Shown here: positions 54,045 to 61,969 of the stretch, piece by piece | How positions within the stretch are numbered: position 1 is the first letter of the stretch | Layout: every line of letters starts with the position of its first letter | Origin: Sphingomonas metalli | Lineage (GTDB): Bacteria; Pseudomonadota; Alphaproteobacteria; Sphingomonadales; Sphingomonadaceae | Reading direction: 5' to 3' | DNA: 64,000 nucleotides | Assembly (NCBI RefSeq): GCF_014641735.1 | Contig: NZ_BMIH01000001.1 | Coordinates: 955,001-1,019,000, forward strand | The notes under the pieces: model-generated | Seen by the model: the letters and a program-made list of their open reading frames with translations, nothing else | The model's database searches: none | Told to the model about the DNA's origin: nothing | Program-made: the position numbers and the translations under genes

Positions 54045-54141
54045 CGTCATGCCGGGCTCGTCCCGGCATCCACCGGTCCGCACATGCTGCGCGCGTTGCC
54101 TTCGCGACACGGTGGATCCCGGAACACGTCCGGGATGACGG
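54045..54141. repeat. Family-A' REP-like paired hairpin (GTCATGCCGGG type)
   Basis: Mirrored ends CGTCATGCCGGGCTCGTCC and CACGTCCGGGATGACGG. The left arm TGCCGGG-CTCGT-CCCGGCA is a perfect hairpin, identical to the left arms at 57709 and 58161. It lies between the convergent thioesterase and aldose dehydrogenase genes. Confidence 0.9.
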
Positions 54142-54152
54142 TTGAAGCCCCC

Positions 54153-55480: not shown

Positions 55481-56047
55481 TTGGTCGATATCGCTGCCCT
55501 TTCCGCCCTGATCGAGCCCGAGGCGCGTGCGCTCGGCTTCGACCTGGTGCGCGTGAAGATGACGGGCGGCAAGTCGGACCCGACGCTGCAGGTGATGGCC
55601 GAGCGGCCCGACACGCGCCAGCTGACGATCGACGATTGTTCGGACCTGTCGCATCGCATCTCCGACCTGCTCGACCGGCTCGAGGCGGAGGGGCGCGACC
55701 CGATCCCCGAGGCGTATCGGCTGGAGGTCTCCTCGCCCGGCATCGACCGGCCGCTGACCCGGCTGAAGGATTTCGCCGACTGGCAGGGGCATGAGGCGCG
55801 CATCCGCCTGACCGCGCCGCAGGACGGGCGCAAGCAGCTGACCGGCGACCTGGCCGGGGTGGAGGGGTCGCGCATCGCGGTCGCCATGGGCCAGCACGGC
55901 ACCGTGACGATCGACTTCGCCGAGGTCGCCGACGCCAAGCTGATGATGACCGACCGTCTCATCGCCGCCACCGCGCCCCTTTCCACGGAGGGCGCCGACG
56001 AATTCGAAGACATGTCCGACGACACGCTTGCAGAGGATACCCACTGA
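55481..56047 (+). CDS. rimP: Ribosome maturation factor RimP
   Basis: 188 residues: N-terminal alpha/beta domain (IAALSALIEPEARALGFDLVRVKM, CSDLSHRISDLLD, YRLEVSSPGIDRPL) and a C-terminal SH3-like domain. It assists 30S assembly. TTG at 55481 (GGAG 7 bases upstream) is chosen over an ATG at 55406, which would add 25 Arg-rich residues. It opens the rimP-nusA-ylxR-infB-rbfA operon and its stop overlaps the nusA start by one base. Confidence 0.93.
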   Translation: MVDIAALSALIEPEARALGFDLVRVKMTGGKSDPTLQVMAERPDTRQLTIDDCSDLSHRISDLLDRLEAEGRDPIPEAYRLEVSSPGIDRPLTRLKDFADWQGHEARIRLTAPQDGRKQLTGDLAGVEGSRIAVAMGQHGTVTIDFAEVADAKLMMTDRLIAATAPLSTEGADEFEDMSDDTLAEDTH

Positions 56048-57687
56048 TGGCCACGGCCACCGCCAACCGCGCCGAACTGATCGCGATCGCCAATTCGGTC
56101 GCGACCGAGAAGATGATCGACCGCGCCATCGTCATCGAGGCGATGGAGGACGCGATCCAGCGCGCCGCCCGCACCCGCTACGGGCAGGAAATGGACATCC
56201 GCGCCAAGCTCGACGCCAATACCGGCGACCTGCGGCTGTGGCGCGTGGTCGAGGTGGTGGAGCTGGTCGACGACCTGTACAAGCAGGTCTCGGTCAAGGA
56301 CGCGCAGAAGCTCAAGCCCGGTGCCGTGGTCGGCGACTTCCTCGTCGACCCGCTGCCGCCGATCGAGTTCGGCCGCATCCAGGCGCAGGCGTCGAAGCAG
56401 GTCATCTTCCAGAAGGTCCGCGACGCCGAGCGCGAGCGGCAATATGAAGAGTTCAAGGACCGCCAGGGCGAGATCATCACCGGCGTCGTCAAGCGCGTCG
56501 AGTTCGGCCATATCGTCGTCGACCTGGGCCGCGCCGAGGGCGTGATCCGCCGCGACCAGCAGATCCCGCGCGAGGTGGTGCGCGTCAACGACCGCATCCG
56601 GTCGCTGATCCTGAAGGTGGTGCGCGAGAATCGCGGGCCGCAGATCTTCCTCAGCCGTGCGCATCCCGACTTCATGAAGAAGCTGTTCGCGCAGGAAGTG
56701 CCGGAGATCTACGACGGCATCATCACCATCCAGGCGGCGGCTCGCGATCCGGGTTCGCGCGCGAAGATCGGCGTGATCAGCCGCGACTCGTCGATCGATC
56801 CGGTCGGCGCCTGCGTCGGCATGAAGGGCAGCCGCGTGCAGGCGGTCGTGCAGGAGATGCAGGGCGAGAAGATCGACATCATCCCCTGGTCGCCCGACAC
56901 CGCGACCTTCGTCGTCAACGCGCTCCAGCCCGCCAGCGTCAGCCGCGTCGTGATCGACGAGGAAGAGGACCGGATCGAGGTGGTCGTGCCCGACGACCAG
57001 CTGAGCCTCGCCATCGGCCGCCGCGGCCAGAATGTCCGCCTCGCCAGCCAGCTGACCGGCAAGGCGATCGACATCCTGACCGAGGCCGACGCCAGCGAGA
57101 AGCGCCAGAAGGAGTTCGTCGCGAATTCCGAGCTGTTCCAGAACGAGCTCGACGTGGACGAGACGCTGGCGCAGCTGCTGGTCGCCGAGGGCTTCACCAG
57201 CCTCGAGGAGGTCGCCTATGTCGAGCTCGACGAGCTGGCGGCGATCGAGGGCTTCGACGAGGATCTGGCGCAGGAGCTGCAGAGCCGCGCGACCGAGGCG
57301 CTGGAGCGCCGCGAGCAGGCCAATCGCGACGAGCGCATCGCGCTCGGCGTGTCGGACGACCTGACCACCATGCCCTATCTGACCGAGGCGATGCTGGTCA
57401 CGCTGGGCAAGGCGGGGATCAAGACGCTCGACGATCTCGCCGATCTGGCGACCGACGAGCTGGTCGAGAAGAAGCGCGCCGAGCCGCGCCGCCGCGGCGA
57501 CGACGCCCCCAAGCGGGCCGAGCCCAAGGGCGGGATCCTCGCCCAGTACGGCCTGTCGGACGAGCAGGGCAACGAGATCATCATGGCCGCCCGCGCCCAC
57601 TGGTTCGCCGACGAAGAGACCGGCGACGCCGCAGACGCGGATGCGGACGCGATCGAGGGAGACGCGCATGCGGAACCCTCGCAATGA
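56047..57687 (+). CDS. nusA: Transcription elongation/termination factor NusA
   Basis: 546 residues: N-terminal RNA-polymerase-binding domain (about 1-125), S1 domain (about 130-200, GEIITGVVKRVEFGHIVVDLG), KH1 and KH2 (about 230-350, VGACVGMKGSRVQAVV and LAIGRRGQNVRLASQL), and two C-terminal acidic helical repeats typical of alphaproteobacteria (EGFTSLEEVAYVELDELAAIEGF). It ends 21 bases before a REP-like element; the next operon gene ylxR is 585 bases away because of the GIY-YIG insertion. Confidence 0.96.
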   Translation: MATATANRAELIAIANSVATEKMIDRAIVIEAMEDAIQRAARTRYGQEMDIRAKLDANTGDLRLWRVVEVVELVDDLYKQVSVKDAQKLKPGAVVGDFLVDPLPPIEFGRIQAQASKQVIFQKVRDAERERQYEEFKDRQGEIITGVVKRVEFGHIVVDLGRAEGVIRRDQQIPREVVRVNDRIRSLILKVVRENRGPQIFLSRAHPDFMKKLFAQEVPEIYDGIITIQAAARDPGSRAKIGVISRDSSIDPVGACVGMKGSRVQAVVQEMQGEKIDIIPWSPDTATFVVNALQPASVSRVVIDEEEDRIEVVVPDDQLSLAIGRRGQNVRLASQLTGKAIDILTEADASEKRQKEFVANSELFQNELDVDETLAQLLVAEGFTSLEEVAYVELDELAAIEGFDEDLAQELQSRATEALERREQANRDERIALGVSDDLTTMPYLTEAMLVTLGKAGIKTLDDLADLATDELVEKKRAEPRRRGDDAPKRAEPKGGILAQYGLSDEQGNEIIMAARAHWFADEETGDAADADADAIEGDAHAEPSQ

Positions 57688-57708: not shown

Positions 57709-57807
57709 CCGTCATGCCGGGCTCGTCCCGGCATCCACCCGTCCGCTTGCAACCTTGCAAGCGGCGTGTGCGGAGCCGTGGATGCCGGGACTAGCCCGGC
57801 ATGACGG
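57709..57807. repeat. Family-A' REP-like element, left flank of the GIY-YIG gene
   Basis: Mirrored ends CCGTCATGCCGGGCTCGTCC and GGGACTAGCCCGGCATGACGG; a further hairpin CCGCTTGCAACCTTGCAAGCGG lies in the spacer. The loop base T in GGGACTAGCCC creates the TAG stop of the GIY-YIG gene on the other strand; the matching element on the right has A there. Confidence 0.92.
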
Positions 57808-58114
57808 ATGGAAGCGGCGGCAGGCCAAGTCCGACCGCGAGATCGTTCCACCCGGGATTGTCGCGCTCGATCAGGTTCTTCTTCCAGTCGCGCGGCCATC
57901 GCTTGATGCGCTTCTCGGCGGCAATGGCTGCCTCCATCGTATCCGCCACATCGAACCAGACGAGGCGGTGGACGGCATGGCGCCTAGTGAAGCCGCAGAA
58001 GCTGCCATCGCGATGCTGGAGGATGCGGCCGATCAGGTTCGATGTGACGCCGACGTACAGCGTGCCGTTGAAGCCGCTGGCAAGGATGTACACGCACGGC
58101 TGACGCTCCCGCAT
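57791..58114 (-). CDS. GIY-YIG family nuclease between two REP-like elements
   Basis: 107 residues. The GIY-YIG core is clear: CVYILASGFNGTLYVGVTSNLIGRILQHRDG (Tyr pair), a central Arg, and TMEAAIAAEKRIKRWPRDWKKNLIERDNPGWNDL with the catalytic Glu region. Close relatives are the solitary YhbQ-like nucleases. It is antisense to the nusA-infB operon. Its last four residues (VMPG) and stop lie inside the left REP-like element, and the second element begins 47 bases upstream of its start. A role in moving these repeats is a hypothesis. Confidence 0.9.
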   Translation of the reverse strand: MRERQPCVYILASGFNGTLYVGVTSNLIGRILQHRDGSFCGFTRRHAVHRLVWFDVADTMEAAIAAEKRIKRWPRDWKKNLIERDNPGWNDLAVGLGLPPLPSVMPG

Positions 58115-58160
58115 GGGGGCAGTGCTGCACAGGTCGATACGCAATCGCAACGAACTTTGG

Positions 58161-58254
58161 CATGCCGGGCTCGTCCCGGCATCCACGGTGCCGCAGGTGC
58201 CGCACCGGTCGTGCTGACGGCCCGGTGGATGCCGGGACAAGCCCGGCATGACGG
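58161..58254. repeat. Family-A' REP-like element, right flank of the GIY-YIG gene
   Basis: Begins CATGCCGGGCTCGTCCCGGC (the usual CCGT foot is missing at this end) and ends GGGACAAGCCCGGCATGACGG. The outer arms match the element at 57709; the spacers differ. It ends 18 bases before the ylxR start, whose ribosome-binding site GGGGAGGG follows directly. Confidence 0.9.
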
Positions 58255-58272: not shown

Positions 58273-59028
58273 ATGACCGACCCCGTCCGGTCCTGCATCC
58301 TGACCCGCGAGCGGGCGACGCCGCGGCATCTGGTGCGGCTTGCGCTGGCACCGGACGGCACCATCCTGCCCGACGTCCGCGCCAAGGCGCCGGGGCGCGG
58401 CGCGTGGATCGGGGTGACGCGCGCCGAGCTCGAGACGGCGATCGCCAAGGGCAAGCTGCGCGGTGCGCTCGCGCGCGCCTTCAAGACCGGCGAGATCGCC
58501 ATCCCCGACGACCTGCCGGCGCGGATCGCGGCGGCGCTGGAGCGCAACGCGCTCGACCGGCTGGGGCTGGAAGCGCGGGCGGGTACGCTGACCACCGGCA
58601 CCGATCGGATCGTCACCGCGGCGCGGTCCGGCCAGGTCCGCGCGCTCTACCATGCGGCCGATGCGGGCGAGGATGGCGCGCGCAAACTGGCGCAGGCGTG
58701 GCGCGTCGGATCGGACCGCGAGGGATCGGATGTGAGGGGGTTGGCGTTGCCGCTTCCCCGCACCATATTGTCGTTGGCGCTGGGCCGCGAAAATGTGGTA
58801 CACATCGCGCTGACCGACCGCGCTGCGGCGATGCGGGTGAGCGAGGCGCTCGACCGCTGGCTGCACTTCATCGGATTTGAAACCCTGATCGGCCCCCGGC
58901 GGGATACATCGCCGGAAGCCTCTACGGCCCCTTGCGAAACGGCCTCGCAAGGCGCATCGGCGCACCGCCCCGGCATGTCCGGGGACGAGGCGTCACCGGC
59001 CGCGACTGTGCACGAGGAATTTGAGTGA
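58273..59028 (+). CDS. ylxR: YlxR/DUF448 RNA-binding protein with L7Ae-like domain
   Basis: 251 residues: YlxR domain about 1-80 ([37 protein letters not shown]) followed by an L7Ae-like domain (about 85-190). It binds nucleic acid and is thought to link nusA and infB functions. After HFIGFETL the last 40 residues are low-complexity (Ser/Ala/Pro/Glu) and their DNA contains two hairpins (58930-58952 and 58968-58984). The stop overlaps the infB GTG start (GTGA). Confidence 0.9.
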
Positions 59029-61830: not shown

Positions 61831-61969
61831 ACTTCCCCTCTCCCATCGGGAGAGGGAAGGAGCCGCGCAGCGGCGGGAGGGTGAGGGTGCGATACGGACC
61901 ACCCTCACCCTCCCACCCGGCTTCGCCGGGCGGGCCCCTCCCTCTCCCGGCGGGAGAGGGGTAAGGAAG
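61831..61969. repeat. Inverted repeat between infB and rbfA (family-B relative)
   Basis: Ends CTTCCCCTCTCCC and GGGAGAGGGGTAAGGAAG, each arm a hairpin (CTCTCCCATCGGGAGAG; CTCTCCCGGCGGGAGAG), with inner GGAGGGTGAGGGTG and CACCCTCACCCTCCC arms. It has the same design as family B but another sequence. AAGGAAG at its right edge is the ribosome-binding site of rbfA, five bases before the ATG. Confidence 0.82.

Follow-up and report, generated by a model that had tools for sequence, protein, structure and literature searches.

A solitary GIY-YIG nuclease gene as a recurrent partner of CGTC-type repetitive extragenic palindromes

Introduction

RAYT is a Y1 (HUH) transposase flanked by pairs of its own GTAG repetitive extragenic palindromic (REP) elements, and REPINs are short non-autonomous pairs of such elements. 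A 2025 Nature Communications paper reportedly introduced enzymes of another class, Ssn, which are GIY-YIG nucleases cleaving single DNA strands at their cognate repeats; the first came from Neisseria meningitidis. The N. meningitidis enzyme is said to act on the NTS repeat and to modulate transformation, the repeat type differing from one homologue to the next, and Ssn is reportedly presented as a transformation modulator and a tool rather than as a mobile cassette. Here we analyse a 64,000-nucleotide (nt) stretch of the Sphingomonas metalli genome (contig NZ_BMIH01000001.1, positions 955,001 to 1,019,000), called the window below, in which a solitary GIY-YIG nuclease gene lies between nusA and ylxR with an inverted pair of palindromes on either side. 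The window enzyme presumably resembles the Ssn nucleases, both being small GIY-YIG proteins paired with a genomic repeat. This likeness is a lead and not a test.

The palindromes themselves have described counterparts. Di Nocera, De Gregorio and Rocco divided REPs into GTAG and CGTC superfamilies in 2013 (PMC3733652). In the accessible part of that paper, a CGTC REP carries an unpaired CGTC (or TGTC, CCTC) tag at one end, a stem of 8-9 bp that mostly starts with AT, a loop of 4-5 nt and a CCA tail. CGTC REPs are organised mainly as inverted dimers, and the dRS3 repeats of Neisseria are CGTC-1 REPs. The same part of the paper reports the CGTC superfamily without a dedicated transposase and leaves its mover open.

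Results

The palindromes of the window fit the CGTC REP superfamily, to judge from their sequence. They share the tag, stem, loop, CCA tail and inverted-dimer organisation set out in the accessible part of PMC3733652: the tag reads cgtc in three of the four cassette REPs and tggc in one, the stem is ATGCCGGG, the loops are CTYGT or CTAGT, the tail is ccac, and three inverted dimers occur within the window. CGTC families 1 and 2 of that paper match the ATTCCCGC and ATGCCGGG types found here; its accessible part names no partner gene for CGTC REPs, whereas here the GIY-YIG gene is a recurrent partner. A domain search matched the window protein to PF01541 with 46.2 bits (cut-off 22.6), which places it in the GIY-YIG superfamily. 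The locus resembles REPIN-RAYT systems in that a gene lies between its own REP pairs and short non-autonomous pairs also occur, and differs from them in combining a GIY-YIG fold with CGTC REPs instead of a Y1 (HUH) enzyme with GTAG REPs; no PF01797 match was found in the S. metalli genome (G000). Our search of the open-licence literature (titles and abstract openings) found no description of GIY-YIG genes between REPs, and no paper mentioning both GIY-YIG and repetitive extragenic palindromic.

Six positions (Y, Y, R, H, E and N), which we take to be the catalytic residues of GIY-YIG enzymes, are invariant in 36 aligned sequences and present in the window protein. An AlphaFold2 model derived from these 36 sequences has a mean pLDDT of 92. 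Its list of similar folds (pdb_via library) is headed by the UPF0213 protein 1zg2 (Z 6.6), with Slx1, I-TevI and UvrC also at the top, and Z values of 5.5-6.6, all below 8. The closest solved structures by sequence are likewise standalone GIY-YIG proteins, 1zg2 (1.7e-8) and 1ywl (1.7e-6); NCBIfam gave no match to the window protein at E 0.01. For UPF0213 and standalone GIY-YIG proteins, the accessible part of a 2006 superfamily survey mentions no repeat association (PMC1564403). The window gene is under purifying selection, with ratios of nonsynonymous to synonymous substitution rates (dN/dS) of 0.09-0.21 against six relatives.

The genome of S. metalli (3.86 Mb, 21 contigs) contains six GIY-YIG matches, of which four are small solitary genes; the other two are UvrC and a frame with an RNA-methyltransferase-like part, as read from frame length and sequence. 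The three remaining solitary genes also have adjacent palindromes, of differing sequences, and we therefore gathered 89 solitary GIY-YIG neighbourhoods from 61 genomes, namely that of S. metalli and 60 congeneric ones. These 89 loci are a subset, mostly the higher-scoring ones, of the GIY-YIG places listed for these genomes. They were complemented by 66 loci of the phylum outside the genus, taken from the higher-scoring end (two of them, L163 and L193, display the same gene), and by the best 80 of at least 473 confirmed relatives from a wider collection. Control genes came from a crude open reading frame (ORF) caller, and orthologous loci are not independent. A strict REP was defined as a GTC tag, a perfect 8-bp stem and a 4-5-nt loop followed by CC, within 150 bp of the gene.

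CGTC REPs recur beside genes of this GIY-YIG family, in types matched to the protein lineage. A strict REP adjoins 54 of the 89 genus loci, 36 of which have one on each side, compared with 35 of 429 control genes from the same loci, on both sides in one. Corresponding figures are 54 of 80 loci against 4 of 117 controls in the wider collection, and 21 of 66 against 1 of 25 for the phylum outside the genus. When any hairpin with perfectly paired arms of 8 bp or more within 150 bp is counted, 72 of the 89 genus loci have one, 44 of them on both sides, and the crude control genes have one on at least one side in 144 of 423 cases and on both in 25. Hairpins lie on at least one side of 43 of the 66 phylum loci and within 150 bp of 65 of the 80 wider-collection relatives.

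Most REPs of the genus loci read, in one orientation, cGTC, an 8-nt arm, a 4- or 5-nt loop, the complementary arm and CCA. The arms depend on the lineage and include, besides ATGCCGGG and ATTCCCGC, ACCCCGGC, ATCCCCGC, ATCCTGAC, ATGCTGAA, GCCCCGGC and others. In 36 of 44 two-sided loci the 8-nt arm is equal on both sides, with at most one mismatch (8.2 in shuffled data, maximum 17 in 2000), and the REPs closest to the gene on either side are mutually inverted in 35 of 41 loci, both being on the minus strand in six and both on the plus strand in none. Repeat type also follows the protein. On a tree with 70 labelled genes, arm type changes 27 times (shuffled mean 49, minimum 44 in 300), tail type 19 times (38 shuffled, minimum 31) and the loop 32 times (47 shuffled, minimum 41). 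For the closest protein at another site and in another genome, the tail matches in 45 of 70 cases, 14.7 being expected, and a 7-nt arm matches exactly in 27 of 70. Different genes of one genome mostly bear different REPs, a common arm type being found in 6 of 53 same-genome pairs. As a separate observation, an untagged palindrome like CCGGAATCTCGAGATTCCGG flanks some GIY-YIG genes of family f7 (L208 and L219) and may represent another type of repeat.

Copies of the repeats elsewhere in the genome follow the same pairing. Three REP families were counted across all 61 genomes, with reversed-pattern controls at 0 throughout. Genomes in which a gene is flanked by a given REP type (9, 6 and 8 genomes for the three types) hold more other copies of that type, with p values of 7e-5, 2e-4 and 2e-3 from hand-tallied counts. 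Five genomes without a listed gene have 0-2 copies in total over the three families. Y1 (RAYT-type) transposases (PF01797) were not found in 57 of the 61 genomes and were found in the other four.

The family extends well beyond the genus. Its profile gave matches in 91 of 249 genomes sampled from the phylum, and the 80 wider-collection relatives include, by record title, Gamma-, Beta- and Zetaproteobacteria, Nitrospira and a planctomycete complete genome; none of these 80 has a Neisseria-titled record. Records titled Planctomycetes, Nomurabacteria, Chitinophaga and Doudnabacteria (L262 (CP087563.1), L286, L301 and L308, for example) contain proteins with 67-73% identity to a zetaproteobacterial one. 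Many such records are metagenome bins, and identity across phyla suggests either horizontal spread or bin contamination.

In genus g17 (family f9) the gene together with its palindromes is a mobile element. A sharp 5' border at (C)TTCGTCAT is common to nine cassettes, which come from four genomes, and six of them have the mirrored 3' border ATGACGAAG; of the others, L226 extends to the end of the aligned segment, and similarity is lost before the border in L220 and L225. The flanks are mostly unrelated, L226 and L228 occupying the same site and L223 and L240 having part of one flank in common. The L228 copy is 513 bp long, consists of palindrome, gene and palindrome, and has perfect 69-bp inverted ends. 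Any target duplication would amount to 0-2 nt in the 31 aligned g17 copies. The L228 locus and the 513-bp block were searched in 61 genomes of g17. The whole locus matched in G114, G339, G309 and G317, and G110 also has the element at this site; an element-free site, with flanks 6-72 nt apart, was found in 15 genomes by a hand count of the matches listed. Thus this 513-bp relative has both the defined ends and the empty sites of a mobile element. In G318, G333, G350 and G351 the left-flank match continues about 50 nt into the element; at the site G350 has a lone 62-nt palindrome, the copy in G346 is shortened, and three more genomes have a palindrome from a different family. The block matched in 51 of the 61 genomes, at least 11 of which have three to five full-length copies among the matches listed, and many matches are confined to the terminal ~92 nt, that is, to palindrome-only derivatives. 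Over the 92 aligned codons, 28 of 35 copies retain an uninterrupted frame, and the median dN/dS is 0.09 over 371 pairs (range 0.03-0.99).

Insertion into the loops of other palindromes was considered at 28 sites and is not claimed: flank complementarity was 14.7 against 11.4 in shuffled data (maximum 13.4), driven by two sites (L346 and L361). Near-identical cassette copies in genome G120 (99.3% over 291 nt) are suggestive and were not used as proof, because this draft genome is split into ~130 contigs, with one of the copies at the end of a contig. The second GIY-YIG copy, at ~6000 of L232 (G120:C63), shows this identity to L165 and is interrupted by ~150 nt holding a CGTC REP dimer, with TTTA at both sides. 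The start of L165/L231 (G120:C40) consists of ~22-nt tandem repeats (GCCTCGTCATTGCCGCGCTGAA) up to the REP before the gene, which looks like amplification of the REP edge.

Within the genus of the window, the evidence for a mobile element with defined ends is indirect. The GIY-YIG gene is present between nusA and ylxR in 10 of the 61 genomes, always antisense to ylxR, and was not found there in 51. Short gene-free junctions occur in G048 and G049, and palindrome remains without a gene in G009 and G037. Eight of the ten proteins fall into one weakly supported group that also contains L043 and L098 from other sites, and those of L044 and L054 lie just outside it. One old insertion followed by losses is the simplest reading, and the window copy is probably a long-standing resident passed on vertically. 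In four pairs among L047, L051, L052 and L056, which have no neighbour genes in common, shared DNA runs 50-54 nt beyond the gene on the upstream side and 75-78 nt on the downstream side, as far as the outer REP ends; in same-site pairs, sharing extends 872 and 1152 nt at the median. Alignment of 15 pairs of close relatives within 10-kb loci revealed no clean case of REP insertion polymorphism; L068 has, relative to L062, a 144-nt insert with REP sequence, which adjoins another REP and is not clean.

The features of the window locus are given in Table 1. The initial annotation had described a 107-residue GIY-YIG gene placed antisense in the nusA-ylxR interval with palindromes on both sides, which the ORF, the PF01541 match and the DNA folds confirm. 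It had also noted a third copy of the palindrome 3.6 kb away; this copy is present but is a mixed dimer, its second half coming from another family, ATCCCGGACGTGTTCCGGGAT. The gene is antisense to both its neighbours, and its TAG stop codon (57791-57793) lies inside the loop of the inner left REP, which encodes the last residues, SVMPG. None of 200 shuffles folded as well as any of the three dimers. The pattern CATGCCGGG(N5)CCCGGCATCCA, with up to two mismatches, has 68 matches in the S. metalli genome, 20 of them exact, and the reversed control has 0. It is thus a many-copy repeat, as for the Ssn nucleases, and one that the window enzyme may recognise. No Rfam family was found at the palindromes, two weak miRNA matches (E 0.28 and 0.84, far under the gathering score) being taken as chance.

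Table 1. Features of the nusA-ylxR region and the third REP dimer. Coordinates refer to the window.
Feature	Coordinates	Strand	Evidence
Solitary GIY-YIG nuclease gene, 107 aa + stop	57791..58114	minus	ORF, PF01541 match, invariant positions, dN/dS
Left CGTC-REP dimer, inverted pair, overlaps 3' end of the gene	57709..57807		Single-strand DNA fold -52.6 kcal/mol, z -13.0
REP 1: GTC-ATGCCGGG-CTCGT-CCCGGCAT-CCA	57711..57737	plus	
REP 2, loop CTAGT; TAG of the loop is the GIY-YIG stop codon	57779..57805	minus	
Right CGTC-REP dimer, 48 nt upstream of the GIY-YIG start codon	58161..58254		Single-strand DNA fold -43.0 kcal/mol, z -7.8
REP 3, degenerate tag (GGC for GTC); inner REP of right dimer	58159..58185	plus	
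REP 4: GTC-ATGCCGGG-CTTGT-CCCGGCAT-CCA	58226..58252	minus	
Third REP dimer, without gene, 3.6 kb away, mixed families	54045..54142		Single-strand DNA fold -32.5 kcal/mol, z -4.1
nusA, host context	56047..57687	plus	Named from sequence alone
ylxR-like gene, host context	58273..59028	plus	

In some cassette-free genomes (G048 and G049, for example) the ylxR-like frame extends from an upstream ATG. The length of the nusA-ylxR interval is highly variable among relatives, and many of them (e.g. L010, L016 and L030) have a small tautomerase-like ORF right after nusA that was not seen in the window. Just downstream of infB, window positions 61835-61961 hold another inverted pair, CCCCTCTCCC..GGGAGAGGGG, which belongs to a different family. 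Hairpins of the CCCTCCCGC type were found repeatedly in the loci of relatives.

Discussion

We lean, with modest confidence, towards the view that the unit is a selfish palindrome-gene-palindrome cassette, a "CGTC REPtron", the only gene of which encodes a minimal GIY-YIG nuclease. The scattered gene-less REP pairs would be short non-autonomous derivatives of such cassettes, as REPINs are to RAYT transposases. Wherever DNA becomes single-stranded, on the lagging-strand template or during repair or uptake, the REP may fold as a hairpin. The nuclease would recognise its own REP type by tag, stem-loop and tail and would cut at the foot of the hairpin, and the cut strand could allow the element to be copied or re-inserted elsewhere with no target duplication. 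We infer that the nuclease binds and cuts its REP hairpin as a single strand and that this cutting drives movement. A broader proposal, to which we give slightly less than even weight, is that CGTC REPs in general, including dRS3 of Neisseria and alphaproteobacterial palindromes, are miniatures of transposable elements that have a GIY-YIG single-strand nuclease as their only enzyme, without a DDE, serine, tyrosine or HUH recombinase, and that are convergent to the RAYT-REPIN system.

Several observations weigh against the selfish cassette. Seventeen of the 89 genus loci have no palindrome with an 8-bp stem inside 150 bp, and 35 have no strict CGTC REP. The protein tree was built from few columns and leaves 26 of its 85 inner branches unresolved. 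Genome G021 has 49 ATGCCGGG copies and its fetched gene is flanked by ATGCTGAA; G040 has 29 ATGCCGGG copies, none adjoining its two listed genes; and 7 of 56 gene-bearing genomes have zero copies of the three counted families. The 89 loci are distributed over 32 sites, five of which hold 18, 13, 10, 8 and 6 loci that look vertically inherited; cassettes of the genus therefore mostly stay put. The whole window cassette as DNA was matched in none of 201 other congeneric genomes, and a partial DNA match was found in 127 of them, mostly to the gene alone. Among 95 pairs without common neighbour genes (identity at least 74%), shared DNA stops at the gene (medians of -6 and -3 nt); sharing bounded by REPs is therefore confined to a minority of pairs. 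Finally, clean mobility belongs to another family (f9), the terminal palindrome of which is long-looped.

The same data could reflect homing, in which the nuclease cuts gene-less REPs and the cassette, by virtue of its REP ends, is copied in by ordinary recombination in the manner of homing endonuclease genes. The absence of target duplication in the 31 aligned g17 copies agrees with homing, and the dimer-gene-dimer layout of the window is a possible product of copying into a dimer. Gene-less relatives may also retain a lone or decayed palindrome at the spot, as in G009 and G037 between nusA and ylxR and in G350 at the L228 site, but such a palindrome is equally explained as a deletion product. 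Some element-free L228 sites (L330, L331, L333 and L334) lack any palindrome of this family, and most multi-copy elements lie in unrelated flanks. We give homing a clearly lower probability than the selfish cassette. We hold similarly low expectations for a host-serving nuclease of the Ssn type, which would cut single strands at the repeat and thereby adjust DNA uptake or the stability of the genome. The repeats would then be recognition marks, and any movement would be due to other recombination. Long-term retention at few sites and purifying selection would suit such a role, as would the reported action of the N. meningitidis Ssn enzyme on NTS and the identity of dRS3 with the CGTC-1 REPs of Neisseria given in the accessible part of PMC3733652. 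However, it leaves unexplained a 513-bp element with palindrome ends, copies at many places, empty sites and palindrome-only derivatives, as well as the patchy presence of the gene in 10 of 61 genomes at nusA-ylxR.

The neighbourhood might also be passive, with REPs landing in any intergenic space or acting as terminators and the GIY-YIG gene being there by chance. REPs are indeed intergenic, and any hairpin with an 8-bp stem is common near control genes (144 of 423). Strict REPs are not: they adjoin 35 of 429 controls against 54 of 89 GIY-YIG genes (one against 36 on both sides), and their pairs are matched, inverted and lineage-specific, so that we regard a chance neighbourhood as highly improbable.

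The initial annotation had proposed a mobile cassette in which a GIY-YIG enzyme, instead of a RAYT, spreads the repeats in Sphingomonadales. The cassette is largely supported, and the enzyme may be what spreads the repeats. The recurring gene-palindrome unit, the near-absence of Y1 transposases and the mobility seen in g17 speak for it, but the copy between nusA and ylxR has the appearance of an old resident. The proposal was also taxonomically too narrow, the pairing being found in other lineages of the phylum and in the wider collection, and it was made unaware of the work on CGTC REPs and of the enzyme-repeat pairing reportedly described for Neisseria (Ssn and NTS). It would have been contradicted by a gene fixed at this spot in all relatives, which the comparison of the nusA-ylxR interval does not bear out, gene-free junctions being present and the gene not being found in most genomes, and by a lack of enrichment near other GIY-YIG genes, to which the strict REP counts run contrary. 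The further possibility that genomes rich in the repeats lack such a gene does not hold for the five gene-free genomes, but G021 and G040 are rich in ATGCCGGG with no listed gene beside these copies.

These results name a concrete partner enzyme for CGTC REPs and provide matched enzyme-repeat pairs in many lineages, and the multi-copy g17 element with its exact ends is a system in which movement can be tested. If the link to Ssn is right, it would supply the biochemistry that a selfish cassette needs. To our knowledge, the GIY-YIG class is not known as a stand-alone transposase. If the nuclease moves the repeats, the unit would be a mobile element based on this class, the spread of a large class of bacterial repeats that has had no known mover could be explained, and the annotation of small "GIY-YIG family" genes would change.
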